Shown one piece after another: positions 2,046 to 58,605 of a stretch of DNA of 64,000 bases. Where the stretch lies: the NCBI RefSeq assembly GCF_019203965.1, contig NZ_CP076448.1, positions 1,937,001 to 2,001,000 of the forward strand, given 5' to 3'. A model generated the notes under the pieces. The model was not told where the DNA came from. It ran no database searches and saw nothing but the letters and a program-made list of their open reading frames with translations. This DNA comes from Elioraea tepida (GTDB lineage Bacteria > Pseudomonadota > Alphaproteobacteria > Acetobacterales > Acetobacteraceae). The translations under genes and the position numbers were made by a program. Positions within the stretch are counted from its first letter, which is position 1. The number at the start of each line of letters is the position of its first letter.

Positions 2046-2142
2046 CGCTGTCGGCGTTGCCGGAACAGGTCTGGCGTGCCGACAGCCGCGGCCCGGACCG
2101 CGAGGTGGCCGCCCGCGGCCAAGCCCGCGCCGCCGCATCGCG

Positions 2143-2156
2143 CGACAACATTGTCA
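2143..2156. promoter_or_regulatory. palindrome shared by both cas operons, copy 1 (upstream of cas6)
   Basis: GACAACATTGTC (2144-2155) is an inverted repeat with five-base arms GACAA/TTGTC around CA, ending 43 bases before the cas6 ATG. The identical 12-mer lies at the same distance before cas2a. TTGTCA could double as a -35 element; a GGCTT(T)GC...CATC tract follows about 20 bases later at both sites. This suggests a shared promoter/operator. That is inference from position and identity, and the protein that binds it is unknown. Confidence 0.6.
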
Positions 2157-2198
2157 GGGCTGTGCGGATCGTGCAGGCTTTGCATCATTGTTCGTGCC

Positions 2199-3095
2199 AT
2201 GGCTTCGCATCCGCTTGCCTCGATCCTCCAAAGCTTTGATTTCCGCTTCGCGCCCGAGCGCGACATCCGCCTTCAGCCCTATTCCGGCTCGGCCTGGCGC
2301 GGCGCGTTTGGGTTCGCGCTGAAGCGGCTTCTCTGTGTGATGCGGCTTCGGCCCTGCGCGGGCTGCCCGCTTTCGGGCGTTTGCCTCTTCCCGGGCTTCT
2401 TCGGCGACGATCCCGAGCACGAGACGCCAAGGCCCTACATCCTTGCTCCGCAGCCGACGCCGCCGGGGGGGTGGATACGCGCAGGCGAGCCCTTCGCTGT
2501 GCGGCTCACGCTGATCGGCGGGGCGGCGCGCGCCGCGCCCTACGTCGCCCAGGCGCTTGTCGATGCGGCGGCGCGCGGGCTGGCACGCCAGCGTGTCCCC
2601 TTCGCCTGCCTCTCTGCCAGCGCCGCCGAGCCGATCACTCTGGGCGGTCCCTCTGGCAGCATCGAGGTCAACCAAGACCCGAGCGAACCACCATCGGCGC
2701 CGCGCACCGTCCGGCTGCGGCTTGCGACTCCGCTGCGCCTACGGCTTCGGGGGGATCTCGTCACCGGCCGAAGCCTCACCCCGGCACATATCCTCGAGGC
2801 GACGCTGCGCCGGGCGCGGCTGCTCGGCCTCGTCGAGCCAGAGCGCGACCTCTCCCAGCTGCGCGAGCTGGCGCGTCTGCTCGCCTGGCGCGACGCACGC
2901 TTCGGCTGGCTCGAGACGACGCGGTTTAGCTCGCGTCAGGACACGAAGATGCAGCTCGGTGGCATCGTCGGCGAGGCGTGGCTCGACCTCGCGCCCTCTC
3001 CAGAGCTCTGGCCCTGGTTCCGGCTCGCCTCCCTCCTCCATGTCGGGAAGGGGGCCTCGATGGGCTTCGGACGGATCGAGCTCCATGCCGAGTGA
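2199..3095 (+). CDS. cas6: CRISPR pre-crRNA processing endoribonuclease Cas6 (RAMP)
   Basis: This 298-residue protein should cut the long CRISPR transcript within each repeat to give crRNAs with a repeat-derived 5' handle. Early residues hold the cysteine-rich CAGCPLSGVCLFPGFFG segment followed by PRPYILAPQP, typical of the divergent Cas6 family of type III loci. The C-terminus carries the RAMP glycine-rich signature GKGASMGFGRIEL. The chosen ATG lies just downstream of the palindrome; a longer reading from 2076 would run through that site and lacks conserved content. It is the first gene of the interference operon and overlaps the next gene by 11 bases. Confidence 0.9.
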   Translation: MASHPLASILQSFDFRFAPERDIRLQPYSGSAWRGAFGFALKRLLCVMRLRPCAGCPLSGVCLFPGFFGDDPEHETPRPYILAPQPTPPGGWIRAGEPFAVRLTLIGGAARAAPYVAQALVDAAARGLARQRVPFACLSASAAEPITLGGPSGSIEVNQDPSEPPSAPRTVRLRLATPLRLRLRGDLVTGRSLTPAHILEATLRRARLLGLVEPERDLSQLRELARLLAWRDARFGWLETTRFSSRQDTKMQLGGIVGEAWLDLAPSPELWPWFRLASLLHVGKGASMGFGRIELHAE

Positions 3096-4191
3096 AACGA
3101 CGCTCACGCCGCCCCTGCGGCTGCTCGTGATCACCGGCCTGTCGCCGCAGGTGGTGACGGAGACGATCTGGGCGCTGGCGCAGCGGACGCCGCCTGCCCT
3201 GCCGAGCGAGATCATGCTCTTGACCACGCGGGCCGGCGCGGCGAAGGCGACCCGCTTGTTGCCGAGCGCATTGACGGCGCTGTCGCGACAGCTTGGCGTC
3301 GCCCTGCCCGCACCGGAGATCCGCGTGATGCGCGACCGGACGGGCCGGCCCCTCGATGACATCGCACGCGCAGAGGACAACCGCGCGGCGGCAGACTCGA
3401 TCACGGCCGCGATCCGCGCCGCCACCGCCGATCCCGCGATCCCCCTCCACGTCTCGATCGCCGGCGGGCGCAAGACGATGGGGTGCCTCGCTGCCATCGC
3501 GCTGTCCCTGTTCGGGCGCGAGCGCGACGAGCTGTCGCATGTGCTTGTGGAGGAGCGGTTCCAGGGGCGGGACGATTTCTTCTTCCCGCCCGAGCCTCCA
3601 CGTCGCTTGCCGCTTGAGGACGGCGGCGTGCTCGACACGGCGGAGGCGCACGTCGTGCTCGCCGAGGTTCCGTTCGTCCGGCTGCGCGGCCAGTGGCGTC
3701 CCGAGTCTGTCGGGTCGGGCTATGCGGAGGCGATCGCGGCCGCGCAGACCGCACTCGCTCCACCTCGTCTCGAGCTCGACACGACGACCATGACGGCGCG
3801 CTTTGGCATGACGTCGTGCCGGCTCAAGCCCTCGCTGTTCGGTATCCTCGTGTGGTTTGCGGAACGGGCGCGACGCGGCGAGGGAGCGGTGATCTGCCCG
3901 CACAAACTCGCTGGCGCGAAGGCGCTTGCCGCCGAGTGCCTCGCCGCGGTCACACGCCTCTGCGGCTCGGCCGATCACGAAGCCTGCCGTGCCGTCAGAC
4001 GTGGCGTCGCAGATGGGCTGCGGCGGGAGGTCCTGGCCGAGAAGGTCTCACGCCTCAATCGGCTGATCCGCGACCTGCTCGGGCCCGAGGGCGAACCGTA
4101 CCGGATTCGGGCGGAGGGGCGACGCCCGTTCACGGGCTATCGGCTCGCTCTGCCGGCGGAGGCGATCCGCATCATTCCGGAGGCACCGTGA
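3085..4191 (+). CDS. CARF-domain protein of the NE0113/TIGR02584 type with a winged-helix-like C-terminus
   Basis: A 368-residue protein. The first ~200 residues match the CRISPR-associated NE0113 family: LLVITGLSPQVVTETIWAL at the nucleotide-binding edge, then SIAGGRKTMG and LSHVLVEERF. These CARF folds bind cyclic oligoadenylate made by Cas10, and some relatives are called ring nucleases. The last ~140 residues end in SRLNRLIRDLLG...YRIRAEG...GYRLALP, which resembles the recognition helix and wing of OmpR/PhoB-type winged helices. I see no HEPN R-X4-6-H pair, so a regulator or ring nuclease fits better than an RNase. The start ATG lies inside the end of cas6, and the stop overlaps the cas10 GTG. 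The winged-helix assignment is inference. Confidence 0.75.
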   Translation: MPSETTLTPPLRLLVITGLSPQVVTETIWALAQRTPPALPSEIMLLTTRAGAAKATRLLPSALTALSRQLGVALPAPEIRVMRDRTGRPLDDIARAEDNRAAADSITAAIRAATADPAIPLHVSIAGGRKTMGCLAAIALSLFGRERDELSHVLVEERFQGRDDFFFPPEPPRRLPLEDGGVLDTAEAHVVLAEVPFVRLRGQWRPESVGSGYAEAIAAAQTALAPPRLELDTTTMTARFGMTSCRLKPSLFGILVWFAERARRGEGAVICPHKLAGAKALAAECLAAVTRLCGSADHEACRAVRRGVADGLRREVLAEKVSRLNRLIRDLLGPEGEPYRIRAEGRRPFTGYRLALPAEAIRIIPEAP

Positions 4192-6698
4192 CCGCTCGAC
4201 CCCTTACCCCGCGCGAGGCAGCGCTTGCAGGGCTTCTGCACGACCTCGGCAAGCTCGCCCAGCGCGCGCACCCGGACGAGACCGCCTTGCGCGATGCCTA
4301 TCGTGGCCAGGACTTCCAGGGTCTTGAGGCCGCGCTACTCCCGAGCGGCGAACACGGTCGCTACACCCACCGCCATGCGCTCTGGACCGATTTCTTCTTC
4401 GAGACGGTGCCGGCGCATTGGCCTGACGGGCTCGATCTCGAGCGGCTGCGCGGCGCGGCGATACGCCACCACAAGCCGGCCTGCGCGGAGGACTGGATCG
4501 TGGCGGAGGCCGACCGTCTTGCCTCGGGGCTCGAGCGCAAGAAGCGCGACGAGGAGGCGGAAGCAGCGGCGACGGGGCGTGCCGGCTTCCGCGAGGCCGA
4601 ACTCGTGGCGCTCGTGCCGCGGCTCGACCTCGGGCTCGGCGCTCCGCCGGCGCAGGCGTTTCGACACGCTGCCGAGCCGCTCACAGCCGCGTCGCTCCTG
4701 CCGACATCGCCGCAACCGGGCGGGCAGGCGGAACGACTGCGCCGTCTCTGGGATGCCTGGTGCGAGGGCTGGCAGGGCTTCGCGCTCCGCGAGGGGCTCC
4801 CGGCGTACCGTTTCGAGCAGTCGCTGATCGCGCTCTCGGAACGGCTCCTCTGGGCCGTCCCGTCCTCGACGGTGGATCAGCCGGACGTGTCGCTGCACGA
4901 CCATGCGCTCGCGGTCGCGGCGATCGGGTCGGCGCTCGCTGCCTTCCATGCCGCCGCCGGAGACTGGGCGGAGGCGAGCATCAGGAACCGCAGACAGCCG
5001 AAGTTCCGGCTGGTCGCGCTCGATCTTTCGGGGATCCAGTCCGCCCTGTTCCGGCTTGCCGGATCCTCGGGTGCTGCGCGGGTGTTGCGCGCGCGCTCCT
5101 TCCTGATCGCGGAACTCGTCGCCTCGGCCGTGCAGGCGGTGCGCGAACGCCTCGGCGCGCCTGCGGCGAGCGTTCTGATCTCCGCGGGCGGCAAGGCGGA
5201 ACTCCTGGTCGCCGCGACCGCCGACCTCGAGGCCCGACTCGAGGACGCCCGAGCGGAGCTCGACCGCTGGATGATCGCGCACTGGCAGGGAGACCTCGCG
5301 CTCAATCTGGCCGCGAGCGAGCCGTTCCCGGCGACCGTTTTCGAGGAGCGTGGCCGCGGTTTCCCCGCGGTGCGTGCCGGGCTCGCGGCACGGCTCGAGG
5401 AGGCGAAGCACCGCCCGTTCCAGGGCTGGCGCAGCGGCGGGCCGGACTTCGTCGGCACCGGCGTGATCGCCGCCCCCTTCGGCGCAGACGGAGCCTGCGT
5501 GACCTGTGGGGTGAGGCCTGCGGTGGTGCAAACCGCGCTCGATGGCGCGAGCCGCTGCGTTGTCTGCGACGCCGCCTATCGCTTCGGCCAACGCTTGCCG
5601 AAGGTGCAGGGCTTCGCTTTGGTCGACCATGCGGCGATGGACGGCGAGGATGCCGCGGCCGAAACCGTCCCGATGCCGTTCGGGTTTGCCCTTGTGCCGT
5701 GGCTGGCGCGCGGGGCGGAGGCGAAACGGACGGTCACCTTCGACGTCAAGGGCGACGCCGGAAGCGCCTTGCCGCGGCCGAAGGCATATGTGCCGCTCAT
5801 CGACGACCCCGAGGCGCCGCGCTACCGCGCGCTCGGGCTCGACGCGCGCGGGACGCTCGAGGCGCCCCCCGAGGCCGGAGACTTGATGACCTTCGCGCAC
5901 ATCGCCGCGGAAGCCCTCGAGGAGGATGAGCACGGAGGGTTCCGCGGGCGGGCGCTGCTCGGCATCCTCAAGGCGGATGTCGATCGCCTGGGGCAGATCT
6001 TCACCCGAGGCCTTGGCGAGGATCGGTCGCCTGCGCGAACCGCTCAGCTCTCCCGTCTGATCGACGGCTATTTCGCCCGGCGCCTGCCCGCCCTGCTCGA
6101 GCGTGCCTTCCCCGCGACCTACACCGTCTACGCCGGGGGCGACGACCTGCTGCTCGTCACACCCTGGCGGCACGCGCTTCCGCTCGCGCTCGAGCTGCGG
6201 GAGGATTTCTCAGCCTTCGCCGGCGGCAACCCGAATCTCTCCCTCTCCGCAGGGATCGCCTTCGTGCATCCGCAGCACCCGATCGCTCTCGCCGCGGCCG
6301 AGGCAGAGGAGATGCTCGAGGGGGCGAAGGACGCAGGGCGGAACCGGCTTGGCCTGTTCGGACGCGCCCTGTCCTGGGCGGAGGCGAAGGCGACGCTCGT
6401 GCTTGCGGAGGCGCTCGATTCCGCGCTGCGGGATGAAAGCCTGCCGCCGACCTTCCTGCACCGCATGCGCGGGTTTGCCGCGATGCGCGACCGCGTCGGA
6501 ACTGATTCGGAACGGAGCGGTGATCGGGCCTGGGCGGCCCGCTGGGGCTACCAGCGCGCGCGTTTCCTCGACCGGGCGAAGAGGGAGGCGCGCGAGGAGC
6601 TCGCGCAGCTGCTCGACCGGGCCGTTCCGCCCCCAGGCGTCGCGGTCGAGGCAGACACCGAGATCGCAATGACCATCGCGCTGTGGCGCAACCGGTGA
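4188..6698 (+). CDS. cas10: type III-A CRISPR Cas10/Csm1 (HD nuclease and cyclic oligoadenylate synthase)
   Basis: The 836-residue signature subunit of the Csm complex. The N-terminal HD domain has GLLHDLGK (His18, Asp19) and RHHKP, expected to cut single-stranded DNA. A treble-clef-like zinc knuckle has CVTC (437-440) and CVVC (457-460). The second Palm domain has the GGDD motif at 650-653, which makes cyclic oligoadenylates when target RNA is bound. LHDHALAVAAIGSAL is a typical Csm1 helix. Both activities look intact. The GTG start overlaps the previous stop as GTGA, which implies coupled translation. A messenger product would feed the two CARF proteins of this operon. Confidence 0.96.
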   Translation: MTARPLTPREAALAGLLHDLGKLAQRAHPDETALRDAYRGQDFQGLEAALLPSGEHGRYTHRHALWTDFFFETVPAHWPDGLDLERLRGAAIRHHKPACAEDWIVAEADRLASGLERKKRDEEAEAAATGRAGFREAELVALVPRLDLGLGAPPAQAFRHAAEPLTAASLLPTSPQPGGQAERLRRLWDAWCEGWQGFALREGLPAYRFEQSLIALSERLLWAVPSSTVDQPDVSLHDHALAVAAIGSALAAFHAAAGDWAEASIRNRRQPKFRLVALDLSGIQSALFRLAGSSGAARVLRARSFLIAELVASAVQAVRERLGAPAASVLISAGGKAELLVAATADLEARLEDARAELDRWMIAHWQGDLALNLAASEPFPATVFEERGRGFPAVRAGLAARLEEAKHRPFQGWRSGGPDFVGTGVIAAPFGADGACVTCGVRPAVVQTALDGASRCVVCDAAYRFGQRLPKVQGFALVDHAAMDGEDAAAETVPMPFGFALVPWLARGAEAKRTVTFDVKGDAGSALPRPKAYVPLIDDPEAPRYRALGLDARGTLEAPPEAGDLMTFAHIAAEALEEDEHGGFRGRALLGILKADVDRLGQIFTRGLGEDRSPARTAQLSRLIDGYFARRLPALLERAFPATYTVYAGGDDLLLVTPWRHALPLALELREDFSAFAGGNPNLSLSAGIAFVHPQHPIALAAAEAEEMLEGAKDAGRNRLGLFGRALSWAEAKATLVLAEALDSALRDESLPPTFLHRMRGFAAMRDRVGTDSERSGDRAWAARWGYQRARFLDRAKREAREELAQLLDRAVPPPGVAVEADTEIAMTIALWRNR

Positions 6699-6712
6699 GA
6701 GGAGCGAGCGGA

Positions 6713-7258
6713 ATGACGAAGACGCATGGATATGGCGGGCCAAGGGGCAACGGCCCACCCGCCCAGCGTCATGGGGGAGGAGGCCCCGGCGCTGGCGCGG
6801 GCCAGGGCGCGCAGAGCGACCGGAAGCGCGAAATCGAACAGGCGCTGCGGCCACCGCAGCAGCCGCCCGCCTATTTCGCGCCCAACAGCCGGGCGGTCCG
6901 GCCAGAGCTTCTCGATGCGGAGGCAGAAAAAACTGCCAGGGACCTGGCGCAGATCCCGGCAAACCAACTGCGGCGCTTCTACGCCGAAGCCATGGCGCTG
7001 AAGCGCCGGATCGACCTCGCCCCCGACACCATCTCGGACGACGACGTGCGGGCGCAGATGGCGCTGCTGAAGGCCAAGGCCGCGTACACCTGCCGCCGCC
7101 AGGAGAAGTATCCAATCGAACTCGTGCGCTTCTTCGCGCGCCACGCCGCCGCCGTGCGGGGCAAGGACGATTTCCGCCGCGGCTTCCAGCCGCATTTCGA
7201 GGCCGTGATGGCCTATCACCGTGTCTATGAGGTCGAGAAGGGGGGAGGTGAGGGATGA
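6713..7258 (+). CDS. csm2: type III-A Csm small subunit Csm2
   Basis: A 181-residue protein with a glycine/proline-rich flexible N-terminus of about 50 residues and a helical C-terminal domain. Segments such as QIPANQLRRFYAEAMALKRR, QMALLKAKAAYTCRRQ and ELVRFFARHAAAV are characteristic of Csm2, which lines the belly of the Csm effector filament along the crRNA-target duplex. Its place between cas10 and csm3 supports this. GAGAGGAGCG lies before the ATG at 6713; an in-frame ATG at 6683 lies inside cas10 and is less likely. The disordered N-terminal extension is longer than in common Csm2 proteins. Confidence 0.85.
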   Translation: MTKTHGYGGPRGNGPPAQRHGGGGPGAGAGQGAQSDRKREIEQALRPPQQPPAYFAPNSRAVRPELLDAEAEKTARDLAQIPANQLRRFYAEAMALKRRIDLAPDTISDDDVRAQMALLKAKAAYTCRRQEKYPIELVRFFARHAAAVRGKDDFRRGFQPHFEAVMAYHRVYEVEKGGGEG

Positions 7259-8034
7259 TCGAGCTCAGAGAGAAGGGGCGTGTGCGGATTGAGGGGAAGC
7301 TCCTCCTCCTCTCCGGCCTGCATATCGGCGCCGGAAAGGACAGTGTCGAGATCGGCGGCATCGACAACCCGGTGATCAAGCACCCCTTCACGGGAGAGCC
7401 CTACATCCCCGGCTCGTCGATCAAGGGGCGGTTGCGCTTCCTCATGGAATGGGCCTTCGATGCGATCCGCAACGATGGTCACGCCTGGGGCTATGATGAC
7501 GGCCAGCCGGTCGACCCGAACGACCCGGTGCTCCGGATCTTCGGCAATGCGCTCAAGGATTGGAAGGGCGGGCCGACGCGGCTGATCGTGCGCGACTGCC
7601 CGCTCACCGCGGACGATCGCAAGCGCTACAGCGAGGCGCCCGATCGCTTCTTCGAGGAGAAGACCGAGGTTCTGATCGACCGGATCGCCGGCAAGGCGCG
7701 TGACGGGGTCGGCCCGCGGCGGACGGAACGCGTCCCCGCAGGCGTCAGGTTCGAGGTCGAGCTCGTCTTCCGCCTCTACGACACGGGCGATGGCGGAGTG
7801 CGCGACCTCGCCTGTCTGAACTGGACCCTGCTTGGGCTCTGGCTGCTCGAGCAGGACGCGCTGGGGGGCTCGGGCTCGCGCGGCTACGGGCGGATACGCT
7901 TCGAGGACCTGCACCTCGTCGCGCCGGGCGATGTCCGCCACGCCCTCGACAACCGCTTCCGCGGGCACCGTTTTGACCGCCACACACCGCCCGCGATCGT
8001 CTCGGCGGAGGCGCTCTTCCCCAAGGCTGCGTGA
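7255..8034 (+). CDS. csm3: type III-A Csm backbone RAMP protein Csm3 (target-RNA nuclease)
   Basis: A 259-residue backbone subunit. Repeated copies along the crRNA cut bound target RNA every six nucleotides. SGLHIGAG and GEPYIPGSSIKGRLR are the Csm3 RAMP motifs, and Asp37 in GGIDNPVIK aligns with the catalytic aspartate known from other Csm3 proteins, so slicing should be intact. A late GSGSRGYGRIRF is the second glycine-rich loop. It starts with an ATG that overlaps the csm2 stop by four bases, and its stop shares a base with the csm4 ATG. Confidence 0.95.
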   Translation: MIELREKGRVRIEGKLLLLSGLHIGAGKDSVEIGGIDNPVIKHPFTGEPYIPGSSIKGRLRFLMEWAFDAIRNDGHAWGYDDGQPVDPNDPVLRIFGNALKDWKGGPTRLIVRDCPLTADDRKRYSEAPDRFFEEKTEVLIDRIAGKARDGVGPRRTERVPAGVRFEVELVFRLYDTGDGGVRDLACLNWTLLGLWLLEQDALGGSGSRGYGRIRFEDLHLVAPGDVRHALDNRFRGHRFDRHTPPAIVSAEALFPKAA

Positions 8035-9038
8035 TGCCGCTCCGTCGCTTCCGCCTCGCCCTCGACACGGCTTCCGCCTTCGGCACGCCGCCGACCTCGG
8101 GCACGCTGTTTGGGCATCTCGCTTGGGCGAAGCGCGCGCGCGAGGGGCGCGACGCCCTGCGCGCCTGGCTTGCGCGCCTTCCTCACGAGCCGTTCCTGAT
8201 CTCCGACCTCCTGCCGGCCGATCACCTGCCGCGCCCGCTTCTCCCCGCCTCGGGCGGCGTGCGGGCGCAGCCGGAGGAGCGGAGGCCCACGCCGGCCTCG
8301 ATCCGCGCCGCCGATGCCGCGAAGACGCTGAAGAAGCGACGCTACATCACGCTCGAGGACTGGCGGCGCCTGCGCATCGGTGCGACCGCCGCGGCGCTCG
8401 ACCTGCTGCTTGCGCCGCGCGACGAGCCGCTCCCCGACCCGCCCTTCCTCCGCCCCAAGCGCGTGCCGCACAACCGGATCGACCGGCAGTCGGGCAAGAC
8501 GCCTGAGGCGGGCGGCGGCGGCCTGTGGTTCGCAGACGAGTGGTGGCCATCGCCCAGGCGCGAGGGGGAGCGTTCCGTCAGCGCCGACCTCTACATCGAC
8601 AGTGGTCTCGAGCCCTCGGAGGTGGAGGCGCTGCTTGCGCATGTCGGGGAGATCGGCTTTGGGCGCGACGCTGCGTTCGGCCGCGGGCGGTTCCGCGTCG
8701 AGGGGTCGGAACCGGCGGGGTGGCTCTCGGAACCGCCTGCAGGGGCGGGGACGCGGCGGATGCTCTCCCTCTCCCAGGGCGTGATCACCCGCAACATGGC
8801 GCACGCCCGATGGCGACGCTTCGTTCTGTTCGGCAAGCTCGGGCGAGAGATGATGGCGGAAGGCAAGCGCCCCTGGAAACTGCCGCTCGTTCTCGCCGAA
8901 GCCGGCGCGACCTTCGCCCCGGCCGACCCGGGTCCGTTCGGCGCCTGGGTCACCGGCCTGCATCAGGATGACGACCCCACAGACCCGATCGGCCACAACG
9001 CCTTCCACCTCGCCATTCCCTACACGGAGGCGCCCTGA
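8034..9038 (+). CDS. csm4: type III-A Csm RAMP protein Csm4 (5'-handle capping subunit)
   Basis: A 334-residue subunit expected to hold the crRNA 5' handle and join Cas10 to the Csm3 backbone. FGTPPTSGTLFGHLAWA near the start is the conserved Csm4 element. The middle RPKRVPHNRIDRQSGKTPEAGG...LWF block and GEIGFGRDAAFGRGRF RAMP loop fit the family. ATG at 8034 overlaps the csm3 stop as TGATG; a GTG one codon earlier is possible. The stop overlaps csm5 in the same way. Confidence 0.92.
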   Translation: MPLRRFRLALDTASAFGTPPTSGTLFGHLAWAKRAREGRDALRAWLARLPHEPFLISDLLPADHLPRPLLPASGGVRAQPEERRPTPASIRAADAAKTLKKRRYITLEDWRRLRIGATAAALDLLLAPRDEPLPDPPFLRPKRVPHNRIDRQSGKTPEAGGGGLWFADEWWPSPRREGERSVSADLYIDSGLEPSEVEALLAHVGEIGFGRDAAFGRGRFRVEGSEPAGWLSEPPAGAGTRRMLSLSQGVITRNMAHARWRRFVLFGKLGREMMAEGKRPWKLPLVLAEAGATFAPADPGPFGAWVTGLHQDDDPTDPIGHNAFHLAIPYTEAP

Positions 9039-10186
9039 TGGCAGCGGTGGTGACGAAACAGAGGACGGTGACGCGGATCCTCCTCCACTGTGTGCCGCTC
9101 ACCCCGCTTCATGTCGGTGACGGGACGGAACTCAGCCTCGACGAGTATCTTCTCGAGACGGCGGAGGAAGAGGGACAGTCCCCCAGGCTCTGCCGGTTCG
9201 ACCCGGTCGAGGCCATGCGCCGGATGACGGCGGAGGAACGGACGCGTTTTCGCACTGCCCTCGACTCGGGAAGGCTCGCCGACGCATCGAAGGCGCTGAG
9301 AAGCGCCGGCAAACGGTGCATCGTCGAACGCGTGCCGGTCTCGCCGCGCTCACGCGCCGAGCTCGAGAAGGCTCTCAACGATCCATCCAGCCTGCGCAGC
9401 GGCGGCGTGCGTGCCTTCGTCCGCTCGGGGGGGCGGCCCTACATTCCCGGCTCCTCGATCAAGGGGGCGTTCCGGACCGCTCTTGCGAGCGCCCGCTTGC
9501 CGCGCGACCAGAGGCCCCACGCATGGACGCACGAGCTGGCCCTACAGGCCGCGCTCGGCCTCGACCCGGGCGATACCTCGACCGATCCGCTTCGTTTCCT
9601 CGGCGTGGCGGACGCGGAGCTGCCCGCAGGAGCGCTCATGATCGACCGCGCCGAGATCATCAAGCGCGGCGGCTCGCCCGGCCCCTCGAAAATCCAGATG
9701 CACTATGAGCGCACGTGCGCGCGCAGTCACGACCCCGCGGATCGGACCAGGTTCGAGGTCGGACTCACCCTCGACTCGCGCCTCGGCCTTGATCGGAAGC
9801 GGCTCTTCCAGCTGACGTCGCGCTTCCACTGGTCGATCTGGCAAGGCGAGCGCGAGCGGTTCTTCCGCGACCATCCCCGCACCTGCGACGCGATGGATCG
9901 GCTTCTCAGGGCGGTCAAACTCCCGGGGGAACGAACGGCTGCCGTGGCCGGCCTCGAGGAGGCGACGAATTTCGTTCTCCTCCGCCTCGGCCGGTTCGGC
10001 CATTTCGAGAGCAAATCGCTCGAGCACGTGCGCCGCGGCCACGTTCCCCAGGCCCGCGAGCGCGATCGCAAGATCCGACAGCCCGGCGAATGGGGATCGA
10101 CCCGAACCGTCACGCGCCTACACGACGGCACCCCGATCCCCTTCGGCTGGGTGCTCGGCTATGAGAAGGACTACGAAATCCTGTGA
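9038..10186 (+). CDS. csm5: type III-A Csm RAMP protein Csm5 (3'-end subunit)
   Basis: A 382-residue RAMP protein that would cap the 3' end of the crRNA and help its maturation. CVPLTPLHVGDGTE and RPYIPGSSIKGAFRTAL are the two family motifs, and the C-terminal GHFESKSLEHVRRG with TRLHDGTPIPFGWV matches Csm5. It is read through a TGATG junction from csm4, and its own stop overlaps the GTG of the Csm6-type gene. With csm1-4 it completes the III-A effector set. Confidence 0.92.
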   Translation: MAAVVTKQRTVTRILLHCVPLTPLHVGDGTELSLDEYLLETAEEEGQSPRLCRFDPVEAMRRMTAEERTRFRTALDSGRLADASKALRSAGKRCIVERVPVSPRSRAELEKALNDPSSLRSGGVRAFVRSGGRPYIPGSSIKGAFRTALASARLPRDQRPHAWTHELALQAALGLDPGDTSTDPLRFLGVADAELPAGALMIDRAEIIKRGGSPGPSKIQMHYERTCARSHDPADRTRFEVGLTLDSRLGLDRKRLFQLTSRFHWSIWQGERERFFRDHPRTCDAMDRLLRAVKLPGERTAAVAGLEEATNFVLLRLGRFGHFESKSLEHVRRGHVPQARERDRKIRQPGEWGSTRTVTRLHDGTPIPFGWVLGYEKDYEIL

Positions 10187-11448
10187 CGACTTTGCTCGTC
10201 GCTTCCGTCGGCGGCTCAACTGACCCCATCGTCAGCGCGCTTGTCGCCTCGCGTCCCGACGTCGCGCTCTTCGTTGTCACCGCCCAGAAGGGAACACAGC
10301 CCGGGTCGGCGGAAAAGGTTCCGGGGATCCTCGAAAAAGCCGGGCTTTCTGCGCTGCGGCACGAGCTCCTCGTGGTTCCGGCCGACGACCCCGAGTCCAT
10401 CTTCCTCGCCCTGCGCGAGACGCTGCGCGACCTCCGCCGCCAGCACCCCAAGGCGCGCCTTGTCCTCGACTACACGGGCGGAACGAAATCGATGTCGACG
10501 GCGATGTTCCAATGCGCTCTGGCCACACCGGGCGTCGAGGTGCAGTTCATGGCCGGGCAACGCGACACGCTCGACAAGGTCACGCCCGGAACCGAACGGC
10601 CGACCCAGATCCCGATCGATTGGCTTCTTGCCGAGCGCACGGAGGCGCAGCTCCGCGCCTATTGGCGAGGCTTCGCCTATGCCGCCTGCGCTGCCGGCGC
10701 CAAGGGGCTTCTTGAGAACCTCGAGCATAACGAGAAGGCCCCCGAGGCAGTGCGCCAGCGCCTGCGCGACCTCGCCGCGGCGGCCCGTGCCTTCGACGCC
10801 TGGGACCGGTTCCGCCACGATGAGGCGGCCAAGGTGCTCGCCACCCTCCTGCCACGCCACCCCGAACTCGAGCAATTCCAGAAGCTCGCGGAGAGGTGCC
10901 GCGACAGCGAACCGCAGCGGATCGCCGATCTCTGGCGCAACGCCGAACGCTGCGCCGCTTCGGAGCGCTATGACGACGCGATCGCCCGCGCCTATCGCCT
11001 GATCGAGTGGGTGGGGCAGTGGCAGCTCACATCGCGGCACGGGATCGACGTCGGTCGGATCGACTGGTCGCGGATCACCGAGAGCGAGGTGCAGCGTGCC
11101 GGGCTCCAGGATCGCCACGCGAGCCGCGCGAAGACGCTCTCGGGCCTCGTCCAGACCCTGAAGCTCGCGGCTGCGAAGGACGAAGAGGGCGAGATCGCCC
11201 GGTTCCTGCGCGACGACTTCCCAGGCAAGAAGGGGAAGGACGGCGAAGGGCGCCTGCGCGACATGCTCGATCTTCGCAACCGGTCAATCCTCGCCCACGG
11301 GCAGATGCCATTGGGCAAGGCGGACTGGGACCGGTTCCTCGCGTTCATGGAGGTTTTCCGCCGCCAGGTCGTGACCCCGCTCCTGCGCTCCGCCGGGGCG
11401 GAGCCTGATCCGCCGCAGCTGCCACAGCGCCCACCCGACACGCTCTGA
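10183..11448 (+). CDS. csm6: CARF-HEPN ribonuclease, Csm6-type (TIGR02710/Cas02710 family)
   Basis: A 421-residue ancillary RNase. The N-terminal CARF domain starts TTLLVASVGGSTDPIV and includes VLDYTGGTKSMSTAMF, the expected ligand-binding loop for cyclic oligoadenylate. The C-terminal HEPN domain carries R365-N-R-S-I-L-A-H372, the catalytic R-X4-6-H motif that becomes a non-specific RNase when ligand binds the CARF part. The GTG start overlaps csm5 (GTGA). It is the last gene of the interference operon, followed by a 67-base gap with a new copy of the palindrome. The exact Csm6 versus Csx1 label is a naming issue; the domain layout is clear. Confidence 0.88.
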   Translation: MTTLLVASVGGSTDPIVSALVASRPDVALFVVTAQKGTQPGSAEKVPGILEKAGLSALRHELLVVPADDPESIFLALRETLRDLRRQHPKARLVLDYTGGTKSMSTAMFQCALATPGVEVQFMAGQRDTLDKVTPGTERPTQIPIDWLLAERTEAQLRAYWRGFAYAACAAGAKGLLENLEHNEKAPEAVRQRLRDLAAAARAFDAWDRFRHDEAAKVLATLLPRHPELEQFQKLAERCRDSEPQRIADLWRNAERCAASERYDDAIARAYRLIEWVGQWQLTSRHGIDVGRIDWSRITESEVQRAGLQDRHASRAKTLSGLVQTLKLAAAKDEEGEIARFLRDDFPGKKGKDGEGRLRDMLDLRNRSILAHGQMPLGKADWDRFLAFMEVFRRQVVTPLLRSAGAEPDPPQLPQRPPDTL

Positions 11449-11515: not shown

Positions 11516-11800
11516 ATGACGCAACGCGCCCTCCATCTCGTCGCCTATGACGTGACGAGCCCGAAACGCCTCCGCCGCGCGCTGCACATCGTGCGCGCCT
11601 ATGCGGTGGGGGGCCAGAAATCGGCGCACGAGTGTTTCCTGAGCGAGGGGGAGCGGCACGCTCTCATGGCGCGCCTGCGCCGCGTGCTTCACCCGGCGCA
11701 GGATCGGCTGCTCGCGCTTCGGCTCGATCCGCGCCAGCGGCAGCGCTGCCTCGGCATTGCTCGCGCCCCCTCCGCCAAGCCCTTCTTGATCGTTGGGTGA
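11516..11800 (+). CDS. cas2: CRISPR adaptation protein Cas2 (first copy, Cas2a)
   Basis: A 94-residue ferredoxin-like protein that bridges two Cas1 dimers in the spacer-integration complex. HLVAYDVTSPKRLRR at the N-terminus holds the conserved first-strand aspartate; VGGQKSAHECFLSEGE is the Cas2 second strand and following loop. It opens the adaptation operon, five bases ahead of cas1. A second, differently sequenced Cas2 closes the operon at 13580. Confidence 0.92.
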   Translation: MTQRALHLVAYDVTSPKRLRRALHIVRAYAVGGQKSAHECFLSEGERHALMARLRRVLHPAQDRLLALRLDPRQRQRCLGIARAPSAKPFLIVG

Positions 11801-11805
11801 GGGCG

Positions 11806-12795
11806 ATGACCACGCTGTTCATCGACCGACGCGACGCGGCAATCGAGGCGGAGGGAGGGACGCTGGTCATCCGCTCCGGCGAGGAGGGCCCCTGGCGCAC
11901 GCCGCTTGCTCTGCTCGAGCGCGTGGTTCTGCGCGGCCCGGCACAGATCACCACGGGCGCGATCGGCGCGATCGCTGCCGCGGGCTGCGGCCTCTTTGTG
12001 CTGAGCGGCCGGCGCAGCGAGCCGGCTGGGATGCTCGTTGGCCGGCCGCACAACGATGCCGCGATCCGGCTCGGCCAGTATCGTCTCGCGACCGAGCCGG
12101 AGAGCCGGCGGCGAATCGCAGCGCTGATCGTCCGCCACAAGCTCGTGGGCCAGGCGCGCGTCTTGCGGGGGGCGCTCGCGCAGCGGCCCGACAGGCGGCT
12201 TGCGCTTCGCCGCGGCATCGAGGCCATCGCCGAGCTGCTGGAGCGTCTGCGCTCCGACGAGGGCCGTTCGGAGAACCGGCTCTCCGGCCTCGAGGGGGCG
12301 GCCGCTGCGGCCTATTTCGAGGCCTATACGAGCCTGTTTCCGCCCTCGCTCGGCTTCGTCGGGCGCAACCGCCGACCGCCGCGCGACCCGGTGAACGCGG
12401 TGCTCTCGCTTGCCTACACGCTCGGTCATTTCGAGGCCGTGCGCGAGGCGCATCTCGCCGGGCTCGACCCGGGCGTTGGGTTCCTCCACGCGCTCGCGCC
12501 TGGGCGCGACAGCCTCGCCTGCGATCTTGTCGAGCCGCTTCGGCCGCTCATCGATCGCTGGGTGTGGCGGCTGTTCGCCGACGAGGTGTTGCGCGGCGCG
12601 CATTTCAGCCGCGACGGCGAGGCCTGCCTGCTCGGCAAGGCGGGGCGGCTTGCCTTCTACGCCGCCTGGGAGGAAGCGTTCCTTGTGCCGCGTCGGCTGC
12701 TCCGGCGCGGGCTTCGGCCGCTCGTCCGCGCCGCTCGAGCGGCGGCGCAGGCGCTTCCTGACGGTGTTTTCGATGCTGCAGGCCCTGCATCTTGA
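11806..12795 (+). CDS. cas1: CRISPR integrase Cas1 (catalytic copy, Cas1a)
   Basis: This 329-residue metal-dependent integrase inserts new spacers at the leader end. The N-terminal beta domain ends at about residue 75. The helical domain shows SGLEGAAAAAYFEAY (metal Glu), NAVLSLAYTLGHFEAV, and GLDPGVGFLHALAPGRDSLACDLVEPLRP with the conserved His and Asp, so catalysis looks intact. Its last 23 bases overlap the next gene, which is a Cas1 relative, so the two are probably translated together. Confidence 0.95.
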   Translation: MTTLFIDRRDAAIEAEGGTLVIRSGEEGPWRTPLALLERVVLRGPAQITTGAIGAIAAAGCGLFVLSGRRSEPAGMLVGRPHNDAAIRLGQYRLATEPESRRRIAALIVRHKLVGQARVLRGALAQRPDRRLALRRGIEAIAELLERLRSDEGRSENRLSGLEGAAAAAYFEAYTSLFPPSLGFVGRNRRPPRDPVNAVLSLAYTLGHFEAVREAHLAGLDPGVGFLHALAPGRDSLACDLVEPLRPLIDRWVWRLFADEVLRGAHFSRDGEACLLGKAGRLAFYAAWEEAFLVPRRLLRRGLRPLVRAARAAAQALPDGVFDAAGPAS

Positions 12796-13570
12796 CGGGG
12801 CCGAGCATCCGGTCGCCGTGCTCCTCGAAGGGCCTGCGCTCAAGCTCCGGCGCCACGGCATCGCCGATGTCTTCGCGCCCCTGCCGCGGCTTGCGCGCGT
12901 GGTGGTGCACGGGCCGCGCGTGCAGTGGCGCACCGAGGCCCTGCTTGGGTGCCTCGAGGCGGGCGTGCCGGTTCTGTTCCTTGGCCGCCGCTCGGGCCTC
13001 GTCGGCGCCCTGGTGCCGCTTCGGCCGCCGTCGACGCGGGCTGACCTCGCCGCTCTCCTGGACGGCGCCGCCGCCGTGCCGGGCTTCCGACGCCGGCTCG
13101 AGGATTTCTGCGCGGCGGAGGAACGCGCCGCGATCCTCGCCCTGGCGGGTGCGGGGCGCGAGCGGTGCCGCGAGCCGGGGCCCGATCTGCGCGCGTCCGT
13201 GGTGCGGCGGCAGTTCCTCGAGTCTTGCGCCGCTCCGGCGGCGGCCGCGATCGTGGAGCTGATGCAAGGGCTGGCGTCAGCGATGGTGGCCGAGTCGCTC
13301 GCGCGCCGCGGCGTTGGCCCGCAGTTCCTTGCGCGCCGAAGCGGCGGCTTCCCGCTCGCCGAGTCGCTCGGGCGTGTGCTCGCGTGGCGTCTTCTTCCCG
13401 CGATCCGGTCGCTCGCCGGAACGGCCGAGCTCGACCCGGGGGGCGCTTTGACCGCCGCCTCGCGGCGCGACGCGATCGCCGCCTTCGAGACGGCCGGCCT
13501 TGCGCCCGCGCGTGACCAGCTGCTTGCGCGGCTCGCGGCGGTGCTTGCCGAGACACTCTATTCGGAGTGA
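12773..13570 (+). CDS. degenerate Cas1-like protein without the catalytic residues (Cas1b)
   Basis: A 265-residue protein. LKLRRHGIADVFAPLPRLARV and LGCLEAGVPVLFLGRRSGLVG match the Cas1 N-terminal beta domain, and a shortened helical domain follows. In the stretch matching Cas1a's GFLH...SLACDLVEP, this protein reads QFLARRSGGFPLAESLGRV, so His is replaced by Ala and the Asp-containing motif is gone. I find no clear counterpart of the catalytic Glu. It begins inside cas1a and ends nine bases before cas2b. A structural or scaffold role in a mixed Cas1 complex is possible. The reading frame is open and codon use is normal, so it does not look like decay. Confidence 0.75.
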   Translation: MLQALHLDGAEHPVAVLLEGPALKLRRHGIADVFAPLPRLARVVVHGPRVQWRTEALLGCLEAGVPVLFLGRRSGLVGALVPLRPPSTRADLAALLDGAAAVPGFRRRLEDFCAAEERAAILALAGAGRERCREPGPDLRASVVRRQFLESCAAPAAAAIVELMQGLASAMVAESLARRGVGPQFLARRSGGFPLAESLGRVLAWRLLPAIRSLAGTAELDPGGALTAASRRDAIAAFETAGLAPARDQLLARLAAVLAETLYSE

Positions 13571-13579
13571 GGGGGCGCG

Positions 13580-13927
13580 ATGCCGGTGAATGCGCGCCGG
13601 GCCTGGATCATCGGCTATGACATCACCTCGCCGAAGCGTCTTCGGCGTGTGGCGCGGTTTCTTGAGCGTCGTGCGCTGCGGGTTCAGTTTTCCTTGTTTC
13701 TTGGGTTATGGACGGAGGCGGAGTTTGAGGAGGTGTGGTTGGGCCTGTCCTGTTTGATCAATCCGCGGCGTGATGACGTTCGCGCCTGGCCTGTGCCTGA
13801 GGCGGCCGAGGTGGTGTCGATCGGGTGTGGGTTGCCGGAGGGGATTGTGGTTGGGGAGGCGCGGTCGCGCGGGTTTGCGCGTGTGGGCGGTGCCCTTCGT
13901 TCGGGCGGTGGTGGGGTTGGTGTGTGA
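13580..13927 (+). CDS. cas2: CRISPR adaptation protein Cas2 (second copy, Cas2b)
   Basis: A 115-residue Cas2 with RAWIIGYDITSPKRLRRVARF, including the conserved first-strand Asp, and LRVQFSLFLGLWTEAEFEEV. It shares the YDxTSPKRLRR core with Cas2a but differs elsewhere and has a glycine-rich tail (GGALRSGGGGVGV) of uncertain function. From about 13670 the DNA is visibly richer in T than the genes before it. The gene runs directly into the CRISPR leader. The 3' part of the gene and the leader recur, inverted, beside array 2. Confidence 0.9.
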   Translation: MPVNARRAWIIGYDITSPKRLRRVARFLERRALRVQFSLFLGLWTEAEFEEVWLGLSCLINPRRDDVRAWPVPEAAEVVSIGCGLPEGIVVGEARSRGFARVGGALRSGGGGVGV

Positions 13928-14017
13928 GCGGTTTGGAGGACAGGTTTGCGCGCCCGCCTCGGATGTGCGAAGCTTGTGTGGAGCTCATTGACATCGTTGG
14001 GTTTTTCGAGGGGGAGC
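13636..14017 (+). repeat. 382-base segment (cas2b 3' part plus leader) duplicated in inverted form at 57988-58369
   Basis: Aligning this stretch with the reverse strand of 57988-58369 by eye gives equal length and only three mismatches (one in cas2b, two in or beside the leader). Similarity stops abruptly at 13636 and continues on the other side into the CRISPR repeats. It is therefore a recent duplication or a recombination junction that carried a leader and the end of cas2b to a second array. Confidence 0.9.
13928..14017 (+). promoter_or_regulatory. CRISPR leader of array 1
   Basis: Ninety bases between the cas2b stop and the first repeat. It contains TTGACA at 13988-13993 and a T5 run followed by GAGGGGGAGC next to the repeat, both kept in the array 2 leader. 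As the leader it should hold the array promoter and the integration anchor. I do not see a good -10 box spaced from TTGACA, so its exact function is open. Confidence 0.75.
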
Positions 14018-17000
14018 CTTCCAAAGCAGACCCGATCTTCAGGGGGTCAAAACGCGCTAGCCCAACAAGCCGCCTGACCGCGGCGACTTCCAAAGCAGAC
14101 CCGATCTTCAGGGGGTCAAAACAGTATCTGGGGCAAACACGTTTCGCCTCCAAGGTCTTCCAAAGCAGACCCGATCTTCAGGGGGTCAAAACCTTTGTCA
14201 AAGAAGCTATCCTTAGAAACTGGCTTCCAAAGCAGACCCGATCTTCAGGGGGTCAAAACGAAGATCTGGATCAAGAGCCCGAACATCTGTCACTTCCAAA
14301 GCAGACCCGATCTTCAGGGGGTCAAAACGCGTAGGCGGCGTCGACATATTTCTTTTTGTATCTTCCAAAGCAGACCCGATCTTCAGGGGGTCAAAACCCA
14401 GATAACCACCACGCCATGCCCGTGCCGTGCAGCTTCCAAAGCAGACCCGATCTTCAGGGGGTCAAAACGATGAAACGGCGCATTGCTGTAGCTCCCTTGC
14501 TCTTCCAAAGCAGACCCGATCTTCAGGGGGTCAAAACGTCGGGAGCGTAGACCCGACGCCTCCAAGGCTGCCCTTCCAAAGCAGACCCGATCTTCAGGGG
14601 GTCAAAACTCCGGCCCGAGATCGGAGAGCGCCTCGAACACATCCTTCCAAAGCAGACCCGATCTTCAGGGGGTCAAAACCTTCCGCCTCAGCAGCACGTT
14701 GCATTGCGTAGGCTTCCAAAGCAGACCCGATCTTCAGGGGGTCAAAACTTAGTCAGCATCGGTGTGTTCCCTTTTGCTTCCTTCCAAAGCAGACCCGATC
14801 TTCAGGGGGTCAAAACCACGCAGGAGCACACGCTAAACACAGCCGCGCTCTTCCAAAGCAGACCCGATCTTCAGGGGGTCAAAACCGGAGTTCGGCGGGG
14901 GTCATGATTGACTCGACCTGGCCTTCCAAAGCAGACCCGATCTTCAGGGGGTCAAAACCAGCCTCGACACCATAGCTGACAGGGTCAAGGGCTTCCAAAG
15001 CAGACCCGATCTTCAGGGGGTCAAAACGTGTTCGATATTGACGAAACTTCGCCTTTGGGCGCTTCCAAAGCAGACCCGATCTTCAGGGGGTCAAAACCTG
15101 GTGCGGTAGGGCCCGTGCCAGTCGGGGGCTCTTCCAAAGCAGACCCGATCTTCAGGGGGTCAAAACGCATCGCACCGGGGGTGGGCTGTCACCACCACTT
15201 CCAAAGCAGACCCGATCTTCAGGGGGTCAAAACCTTGATGCTTAGGACCTAAACCCCCACCGCTCGTCTTCCAAAGCAGACCCGATCTTCAGGGGGTCAA
15301 AACAAGACGAAACTCGTCAATAATCTTCACCCAATCACTTCCAAAGCAGACCCGATCTTCAGGGGGTCAAAACCAACGGCCGCAATGTCGCGAGCGGCCG
15401 CAAGAAACTTCCAAAGCAGACCCGATCTTCAGGGGGTCAAAACACTACGGGTCATCTTTTGTCTCCCTTGCTACTGCCTTCCAAAGCAGACCCGATCTTC
15501 AGGGGGTCAAAACCCGCGAGACCACGGAATGCCACCACGCTTGCGGCGCTTCCAAAGCAGACCCGATCTTCAGGGGGTCAAAACCGCGACGATGCGTCCG
15601 GCCTCGTCTCGGATTGCCTTCCAAAGCAGACCCGATCTTCAGGGGGTCAAAACACACGCATCGCGTAGGCGGCATCAACGTACCTTTTTTCTTCCAAAGC
15701 AGACCCGATCTTCAGGGGGTCAAAACAGATGCTTCCATTATGGTCAACAGTATCGAACCCTTCCAAAGCAGACCCGATCTTCAGGGGGTCAAAACACTAC
15801 GGGTCATCTTTTGTCTCCCTTGCTACTGCCTTCCAAAGCAGACCCGATCTTCAGGGGGTCAAAACCGCCGGACGTCTGGGGGTCAGTCGAAGGTGGGGGT
15901 CTTCCAAAGCAGACCCGATCTTCAGGGGGTCAAAACGAAAGCCTTGGCGTCGATCTCGCCGCCGATGCCTTCCAAAGCAGACCCGATCTTCAGGGGGTCA
16001 AAACTCACTGTCACGGACTTATACCCAGGCAAAGACTTCCAAAGCAGACCCGATCTTCAGGGGGTCAAAACGTGGTGGCGGGGTGAGGGGGTGCGGCGCG
16101 CTCGCCACTTCCAAAGCAGACCCGATCTTCAGGGGGTCAAAACCCTGTCAGCATCCGGTATCCCGCATCGCGGGCCTTCCAAAGCAGACCCGATCTTCAG
16201 GGGGTCAAAACCGGAAGCCTTTGCCTGGATAGACAACGAAGCGAAGCTTCCAAAGCAGACCCGATCTTCAGGGGGTCAAAACCCGCCCACGTCACGCATG
16301 TCCACATCTCCGTCTTCCAAAGCAGACCCGATCTTCAGGGGGTCAAAACATCCACGAACCATCCGCGTTGTCGGCAACGAAGCCTTCCAAAGCAGACCCG
16401 ATCTTCAGGGGGTCAAAACCCAAGGTCAAGATAGGCGAATCCTTCGCTCGCCCTTCCAAAGCAGACCCGATCTTCAGGGGGTCAAAACTACTGCCGCGCG
16501 ATCCCTGTAGGCTTGAGCTTCCGCTTCCAAAGCAGACCCGATCTTCAGGGGGTCAAAACGCGAATCTCGTCCAGCACAAGCGGCAAAGGCACGGACTTCC
16601 AAAGCAGACCCGATCTTCAGGGGGTCAAAACGGCCGCGCGTCACGGCCCTCCCCCGCCACAGCGGCCTTCCAAAGCAGACCCGATCTTCAGGGGGTCAAA
16701 ACCCACTGAAGCTCGATAACGTGGACAGCGTTCTCAACTTCCAAAGCAGACCCGATCTTCAGGGGGTCAAAACCTCACGCTCGGCGCGCAGCTCCCAAGC
16801 CGCTGCCTTCCAAAGCAGACCCGATCTTCAGGGGGTCAAAACACCGGAGTCCATATTTATCCTCCACCGTTTCCGCCTTCCAAAGCAGACCCGATCTTCA
16901 GGGGGTCAAAACAACAGTCGGCCGACCTGACGACCCGGACGGCCTCTTCCAAAGCAGACCCGATCTTCAGGGGGTCAAAACAGCTTGGCCTTCTGCATTT

Positions 17001-17259
17001 CCTCGGTAGTCAGCCTTCCAAAGCAGACCCGATCTTCAGGGGGTCAAAACTCTTGCGCCAACTTCGCTACCTTGACTTCCTCGCTTCCAAAGCAGACCCG
17101 ATCTTCAGGGGGTCAAAACAAAGAGCCGGTCGCTTTTGTCAGCGACCTTCTCTTCCAAAGCAGACCCGATCTTCAGGGGGTCAAAACGCCGAACGCATCC
17201 GGATTAAGCGCCGCGGCTACCTTCCAAAGCAGACCCGATCTTCAGGGGGTCATAACGGC

Positions 17260-17285
17260 GGAAGCGGGTCAATCGACCCGCTTCC
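17260..17285. other. perfect 11-bp hairpin inside a spacer of array 1
   Basis: Within the spacer at 17257-17287, GGAAGCGGGTC pairs exactly with GACCCGCTTCC around the loop AATC. A stem this long is well above chance for a 31-base spacer. It looks like a terminator stem captured from an invader, although no T run is included. Confidence 0.8.
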
Positions 17286-17393
17286 AACTTCCAAAGCAGA
17301 CCCGATCTTCAGGGGGTCAAAACCATCACGAGTAAACATCTCGATTCTCCCTTTGCCTTCCAAAGCAGACCCGATCTTCAGGGGGTCAAAACG

Positions 17394-17421
17394 GGGGGAG
17401 GGACCATCGAGTCCCTCCCCC
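17394..17421. other. perfect 11-bp hairpin in the last spacer of array 1
   Basis: GGGGGAGGGAC (17394-17404) pairs exactly with GTCCCTCCCCC (17411-17421) around CATCGA. It lies between the last normal repeat and the degenerate terminal repeat. It may be a captured terminator or may now end array transcription. No T tract follows, so it is not a standard intrinsic terminator. Confidence 0.8.
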
Positions 17422-17460
17422 GAAGCTTCTAAACCAGACCCGATCCTCAGCGGGCAAAAC

Positions 17461-17808
17461 ACGCACGCGATCAGCAGCACCAGCCGCGCAAAGCCCAACC
17501 GAGACCAAAGCCCCACACGTCACACCCCGTCCCCGATCACGCAGCAACGCACGGCGCCAGGCCCCACCGCGAGCCCAAGCGTCTCGGCGTCAAAACCCAA
17601 GACGGCCGAAAAGTGACAGCCAACCAGGGCCGCGCCTCCACGCGCGCGAGCCCCGCCCGAGCGCCCGTCACATGCCCCAGCGCACGGCAACAACTCGCCG
17701 CGACGACGATCGCTCTTCCGACCGGAGAAGGTGACGAGCCGAAACGACCGGCACCGCGCACGGCGCCGCCGCAACCGCCCGGCCTGCCCATTAGCCCAAG
17801 GCGGTGCG
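17461..17808. other. gap between array 1 and tRNA-Ala: nothing recognised
   Basis: A GC-rich 348-base stretch. Short open frames exist on both strands, for example 17520-17774 on the minus strand, but none has a family motif or a good ribosome site. I see no integrase, att-like repeat of the tRNA end, or transposon end. Confidence 0.5.
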
Positions 17809-57987: not shown

Positions 57988-58077
57988 GCTCCCCCTCGAA
58001 AAACCCAACGATGTCAATGAGCTCCACACAATCTTCGCACATCCGAGGCGGGCGCGCAAACCTGTCCTCCAAACCTC
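57988..58077 (-). promoter_or_regulatory. CRISPR leader of array 2
   Basis: The reverse strand equals the array 1 leader except for two A/C changes. TTGACA and the T5-GAGGGGGAGC edge next to the first repeat are kept, so this array should be transcribed and able to receive spacers from the same adaptation proteins. Confidence 0.75.
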
Positions 58078-58369
58078 TCACACACCAACCCCACCACCGC
58101 CCGAACGAAGGGCACCGCCCACACGCGCAAACCCGCGCGACCGCGCCTCCCCAACCACAATCCCCTCCGGCAACCCACACCCGATCGACACCACCTCGGC
58201 CGCCTCAGGCACAGGCCAGGCGCGAACGTCATCACGCCGCGGATTGATCAAACAGGACAGGCCAAACCACACCTCCTCAAACTCCGCCTCCGTCCATAAC
58301 CCAAGAAACAAGGAAAACTGAACCCGCAGCGCACGACGCTCAAGAAACCGCGCCACACGCCGAAGACGC
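57988..58369 (-). repeat. inverted copy of the 13636-14017 segment
   Basis: The partner of the segment beside array 1, same length, three mismatches by eye. It ends abruptly inside cas2b. Together with the arrays it makes a long inverted repeat around about 40 kb of chromosome. Confidence 0.9.
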
Positions 58370-58371
58370 AT
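58078..58371 (-). pseudogene. 5'-truncated cas2b remnant beside array 2
   Basis: The minus strand reads LRRVARFLERRALRVQFSLF and the rest of Cas2b to its end with one change (Leu to Phe in VWLGLSC). The first 18 or so residues, including the conserved Asp of YDITSP, are missing; the sequence before it is unrelated. An ATG at 58371 could start a 97-residue fragment, but without the first strand it should not work as Cas2. Confidence 0.88.
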
Positions 58372-58605
58372 CCGCGAGCACCGAGCACCGGCGGCCGACA
58401 GGCAATGCTGCGGCGGTGTCGCGCGCCGCTACGGCATATCTCGCACGCCCTCGCGTCAGGACCTGACGGGTGCGCGCGGAGTGCCGGCGGCAGTTGCGCC
58501 GCGGCCCTCCGAGAGCGTCCATTGGCGAGCCGAACCATCCGAGCTGGGGGGCAGAGCATCCGATCGGCCTCGCGATCATGCGCGTGGGAACGCGGATGTC
58601 GCCTT

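Follow-up and report, generated by a model that had tools for sequence, protein, structure and literature searches.

Ordinary Cas1-Cas2 integrases are two-fold symmetric, yet have to insert their spacers in a single direction; of their four Cas1 subunits, two carry out no chemistry. What, then, does an adaptation operon do with a second cas1 whose product has lost its active site, and with a second cas2? The question is raised by an operon in a stretch of 64,000 nucleotides of Elioraea tepida DNA (contig NZ_CP076448.1; hereafter the window). A sequence-only reading had described a four-gene operon, cas2a-cas1a-cas1b-cas2b, at 11516-13927, and all of its frames are indeed open and intact:

11516-11800, plus strand: cas2a, 94 aa; motif GGQKSxHEC; PF09827, 1.8e-11
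11806-12795, plus strand: cas1a, catalytic Cas1 (E163, H228, D240, E243); PF01867, 2e-68
12773-13570, plus strand: cas1b, diverged non-catalytic Cas1; best profile PADLOC PDLC01185, 4e-8
13580-13927, plus strand: cas2b, 115 aa; motif VQxSLF; C-terminal tail variable; PF09827, 1.6e-12

Both Cas2 proteins pass the curated Pfam cut-off of PF09827 (44.5 bits for Cas2a and 47.8 bits for Cas2b, against 23.8), and Cas1a passes that of PF01867 (231 bits). Cas1a retains the Glu, His and Asp blocks, as had been proposed: E163 lies in the motif GLEG, H228 in FLH, and D240 and E243 in DLVEP, and in an alignment the four columns are invariant in 21 of 21 relatives. The start of cas1b lies inside the 3′ end of cas1a, with an overlap of 23 nt in the window. 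Cas2a is 93-94 residues long, with a fixed end point, in all 22 modules compared; it is the tail of Cas2b that varies.

The adaptation module lies directly 3′ of a type III-A effector operon, and a leader and a CRISPR array follow it; a second array lies further along the window:

2076-3095, plus strand: Cas6-like candidate gene, assigned by inspection; matches no NCBIfam model; conserved among relatives
3088-4191, plus strand: ring nuclease, Csm6 family; TIGR02584 (NE0113), 3.4e-51
4179-6698, plus strand: cas10/csm1 (type III-A); TIGR02578, 6e-145; start codon uncertain
6683-7258, plus strand: csm2; TIGR01870, 6.7e-13
7255-8034, plus strand: csm3; TIGR02582, 5.9e-58
8031-9038, plus strand: csm4; TIGR01903, 2.1e-14; 53.5 bits, slightly below the cut-off of 55
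9038-10186, plus strand: csm5; TIGR01899, 2.9e-11
10183-11448, plus strand: CARF protein, TIGR02710 family, 1.4e-46
13928-14017, plus strand: leader, between cas2b and the first array
14018-17461, plus strand: first CRISPR array, 50 repeats of 36 nt, the last degenerate (17426); 49 spacers of 31-37 nt, mean 33.6
55147-57987, minus strand: second CRISPR array, with the same repeat as the first; 41 repeats, 40 spacers
57988-58378, minus strand: leader copy with the 3′ part of a 5′-truncated cas2b, serving the second array

Cas10/Csm1, Csm2, Csm3 and Csm5 score above their cut-offs and Csm4 near its own, which assigns the effector to type III-A. Elsewhere, the effectors beside the module are of type III-A in the group to which the window belongs and in locus L076, and a Cmr2 of type III-B adjoins it in L080; a III-B effector is also present in two loci with a doubled cas2 and no cas1b, that of Aeromonas and L082 (see below). 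Thus, the module is not bound to one subtype. Two other loci of the same genome (L087 7909-9903; L088 8411-9160), a Cas4g/Cas1g fusion accompanied by an array of 72 repeats and a type II Cas1 accompanied by a short one, belong to other repeat types.

The copy of the leader and cas2b end beside the second array is 98.8% identical to its counterpart over 432 bp (blastn); it matches 13627-14018 and continues into the first repeat. Comparison of the 49 spacers of the first array with the 40 of the second revealed no identical spacer. Spacer 4 of the first array resembles spacer 27 of the second (90% identity over 30 nt, same orientation), as if they came from related viruses, and spacers 21 and 26 of the first array are identical, an internal duplication. 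Both arrays have therefore changed their spacers since the leader was copied, unless the leader alone was copied beside a pre-existing array.

Is Cas1b still a Cas1? In an alignment with Cas1a, a segment of about 50 residues that carries the catalytic Glu is deleted from Cas1b, FLA stands in place of FLH, with Ala for the catalytic His, and the DLxEP motif is absent. The beta domain, the FLA and the lack of DLxEP had been read from the window and are borne out by the alignment; the deletion of the Glu region is additional. The catalytic Glu, His and Asp/Glu are missing from all 20 Cas1b sequences aligned. The protein consists of a beta domain (about residues 1-86) followed by a shortened helical domain. 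Cas1b of the window matches PF01867 only in its N-terminal part (residues 23-83), with 15.9 bits, under the curated cut-off of 22.3, and has no match among the NCBIfam models; PF01867 was matched by all 16 Cas1b members scanned, at best with 7.7e-9. Profile comparison of Cas1a with Cas1b by hhalign aligned their beta domains (96%, E 3e-9). An AlphaFold model of Cas1b, computed from a 16-sequence alignment, had a pLDDT of 89.5 and a pTM of 0.83, and its top 50 Foldseek matches in the PDB were all Cas1 proteins or casposases (TM up to 0.72). For a far relative, about 20% identical and from the most divergent group, the model was of similar quality (pLDDT 90.1, pTM 0.87), and its best structural matches, too, were Cas1 proteins and casposases. 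Both models fit chains B/D of the E. coli structures 5DS4 and 5VVJ better than chains A/C (TM ~0.6 vs 0.43), a difference to which we attach no weight. By predicted fold and by profile, Cas1b is thus a genuine Cas1-fold protein, with an N-terminal beta domain and an all-helical domain, and the proposal that it is a Cas1 relative withstands the structural check.

A search of whole genomes and named contigs found carriers of Cas1b in three groups of Pseudomonadota: in Acetobacteraceae (Caldovatus, Crenalkalicoccus, Elioraea and Rhodovarius MAGs), in 8 of the 31 genomes of a second alphaproteobacterial order, and in another class of the phylum. The viral contigs and plasmids searched held no Cas1b relative. 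The candidates L005, L018-L021 and L029-L036 were rejected as other proteins or ordinary Cas1. Misassembly of the window is ruled out by the occurrence of the same module in independently sequenced Caldovatus, Crenalkalicoccus and Elioraea genomes. The order cas2a-cas1a-cas1b-cas2b is found in all 20 complete loci (three further loci are cut by contig ends), cas1b is always directly downstream of cas1a, and no Cas1b without the partner genes of the module was found where the contig is complete. The four-gene order, which the sequence-only reading had proposed to look for in other genomes, is therefore there, across the three groups.

The same loci bear on the maintenance of cas1b. Its frame is open in all 20 of them, so that the gene is not usually disrupted in relatives, and where cas1a is intact (19 loci), the start of cas1b overlaps its end by 4-26 nt in all but two. 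The twentieth locus (L010, in a Rhodovarius MAG) has a frameshifted cas1a (8957-10783) that runs into the cas1b frame; the same MAG holds a second copy of the module (L011), which is intact. The dN/dS of cas1b was 0.21-0.44 in six pairs. As judged from these ratios, cas1b is under purifying selection and not decaying, in agreement with the suggestion of the sequence-only reading that this nested frame is maintained.

Dimerization of Cas1 is the task of the beta domain in the structures known, while the active site lies in the helical domain. Among Acetobacteraceae, the mean pairwise identity of Cas1b is 0.77 in the beta domain and 0.53 in the helical domain, whereas Cas1a shows the opposite pattern (0.67 and 0.75, respectively). 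A beta domain better conserved than the helical domain is what is expected for a subunit kept for pairing rather than for chemistry. Cas1b is also co-inherited with its partners. Of all pairs among the four proteins, the correlation of distances is strongest between Cas1a and Cas1b (Spearman 0.89), to which shared ancestry is also expected to contribute.

Phylogenetic analysis places the Cas1a proteins of these modules in a single clade (97/97), separate from ordinary Cas1. Cas1b is monophyletic (support 100/100) and hence has a single origin. Cas2a and Cas2b form two distinct clades (95/87), whose members stand side by side in 22 modules. The Cas1a clade includes members with two Cas2 and no Cas1b, namely those of L082 and L083 (genomes G974 and G305), of the Aeromonas media plasmid pMC64A and of a Sphaerotilus plasmid. 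In both plasmids the order is cas2-cas1-cas2; in Allochromatium vinosum pALVIN01 (L091 5304-7023) it is cas2-cas2-cas1, again without cas1b, adjoining csm6 and csx16. Where Cas1b is lacking, as in Aeromonas, Sphaerotilus and Allochromatium, the two Cas2 copies still divide between the Cas2a and Cas2b clades, and upstream and downstream copies fall on the matching sides. Thus, the doubled Cas2 is separable from Cas1b. The position of the members without Cas1b among its carriers suggests repeated loss, in a tree in which several supports are below 95 and which resolves gain and loss of Cas1b only moderately. L082, L083, L089 and L090 have one Cas1 flanked by two Cas2, and the end branches of these Cas1 proteins are longer than those of most Cas1b carriers. 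The Sphaerotilus module (L089 1-7118) adjoins the BREX-2 genes pglX and pglW.

We consider it probable that the operon encodes a heteromeric type III spacer integrase, with Cas1b as a dedicated non-catalytic protomer paired with Cas1a, and with a Cas2a-Cas2b core. Each Cas1 dimer of the known integrases contains one inactive copy, which builds the wall of the repeat channel (PMC12259127); the non-catalytic Cas1 touches the repeat, and it may provide part of a ruler (PMC6895254). Since its active site is lost and its pairing domain is kept, Cas1b fits this idle position. We infer a physical pairing of Cas1a and Cas1b, with the following stoichiometry and placement: Cas1a would be the sole catalytic Cas1 of the complex; Cas1b would pair with it through the conserved beta domain and would fill the place of the idle Cas1 of an ordinary Cas1-Cas2 complex, as wall of the repeat channel and in contact with Cas2; Cas2a and Cas2b would form the central Cas2 pair; and the likely assembly would be two Cas1a-Cas1b pairs on a Cas2a-Cas2b core. 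This division of labour requires no asymmetry. It had been argued at the outset that a dead Cas1 implies an asymmetric complex, which does not follow, as known dimers already hold one inactive Cas1 (PMC12259127; PMC6895254). Some observations count against the dedicated partner. L082, L083, Sphaerotilus and Aeromonas keep both Cas2 proteins without Cas1b, which is thus not strictly needed there; a fast-evolving helical domain is less expected of a protein in tight contact with DNA; and the conserved beta domain fits dimerization, the partner not being thereby proven.

The doubled Cas2 lends itself to another, less probable reading: that the integrase is hard-wired to be asymmetric, Cas2a and Cas2b, perhaps with Cas1b at one end, fixing spacer orientation with no need for a helper that reads the PAM. 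The means by which spacers are oriented by a symmetric integrase is a stated question (PMC12259127), and such a role is favored by the two Cas2 clades kept together in 22 modules, by the recurrence of the same clades where Cas1b is missing, and by the uniform length and fixed end of Cas2a beside the variable tail of Cas2b; two pairs of related spacers also share their orientation, which is anecdotal. However, a search of phages for protospacers of the first array found none; an asymmetric placement of Cas1b is unsupported; and separate Cas2a and Cas2b homodimers are also conceivable. A direction-giving role, which the sequence-only reading had offered for the dead Cas1 and the second Cas2, is possible, and the Cas2a/Cas2b pair is the better candidate for it, as this pair also occurs without Cas1b; our hypothesis would be that any asymmetry is better placed there than in the dead Cas1. 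It is likewise somewhat doubtful that the integrase is obligately heteromeric and asymmetric at once, with Cas1a-Cas1b pairs and a non-identical Cas2 pair that would distinguish the leader from the spacer end and so orient type III spacers without a PAM-reading helper. Two further roles proposed for Cas1b fare less well. That it sets spacer length is unlikely, as the spacers are of ordinary length both here and in two loci that lack Cas1b (medians 34 and 32 nt). Recognition of RNA is unsupported, since no protein of the operon matches a reverse transcriptase model.

This last result also speaks against a separate task for Cas1b, such as the capture and hand-over of prespacers (ssDNA or RNA) or a link to the type III effector or to Cas6. 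The module has been seen only with III-A and III-B effectors and nearly all Cas1b members are basic, as such a task might have it, but neither an extra domain nor a conserved new catalytic motif was found in the Cas1b members, and we regard the idea as unlikely. Dead paralogues can serve as inhibitors, and the conserved part of Cas1b is the dimerization domain, so that Cas1b could be a negative regulator that restrains integration by poisoning Cas1a dimers, for example as a guard against self-targeting. The tight coupling of the cas1a stop to the cas1b start argues instead for steady co-production, and near-identical leaders with no spacer identical between the two arrays suggest that the arrays have turned over; a regulator is accordingly quite unlikely. 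It is hardly credible that Cas1b is a functionless, decaying duplicate: the helical domain does evolve fast, Cas1b is lost or absent in some relatives and cas1a is frameshifted in one MAG copy (L010), but the frame stays open throughout two orders and a further class, the dN/dS values are low and the predicted fold is confident.

The module can be set beside systems already described. With the canonical Cas1-Cas2 of E. coli type I-E and the Cas1-2/3 of P. aeruginosa it shares the Cas1 fold, the Cas2 fold and, in Cas1a, the catalytic Glu, His and Asp. Of the four Cas1 positions in the canonical complex, two are active and two inactive (PMC12259127). There, however, the idle and the active Cas1 are one polypeptide and Cas2 is a homodimer, whereas here each has its own gene. 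RT-Cas1 modules likewise combine a type III effector with adaptation genes of its own, but the present operon lacks any match to the reverse transcriptase models and Cas1a is not a fusion. The cas1b gene has been noticed before: the PADLOC-DB profile PDLC01185, labeled 'Cas1, diverged variant, second in the loci', a label that describes the same gene position, is the best profile for Cas1b of the window and of the distant relatives L073, L075 and L080 (4e-8 to 8e-15). The entry is a profile label only and says nothing of what the protein does, of its active site, of a surrounding module or of how widely it occurs. In the openly readable main texts covered, among them the 2025 CRISPR classification text, we found no account of cas1b, and none of the four-gene module and what it does.

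The four-gene module is thus a real, widespread and unexplained variant of the CRISPR adaptation machinery. As active and inactive Cas1 are encoded separately, and so are the two Cas2 proteins, every position is separately mutable, and both the role of the idle Cas1 and the way in which an integrase finds its direction become directly testable by the omission of single genes.
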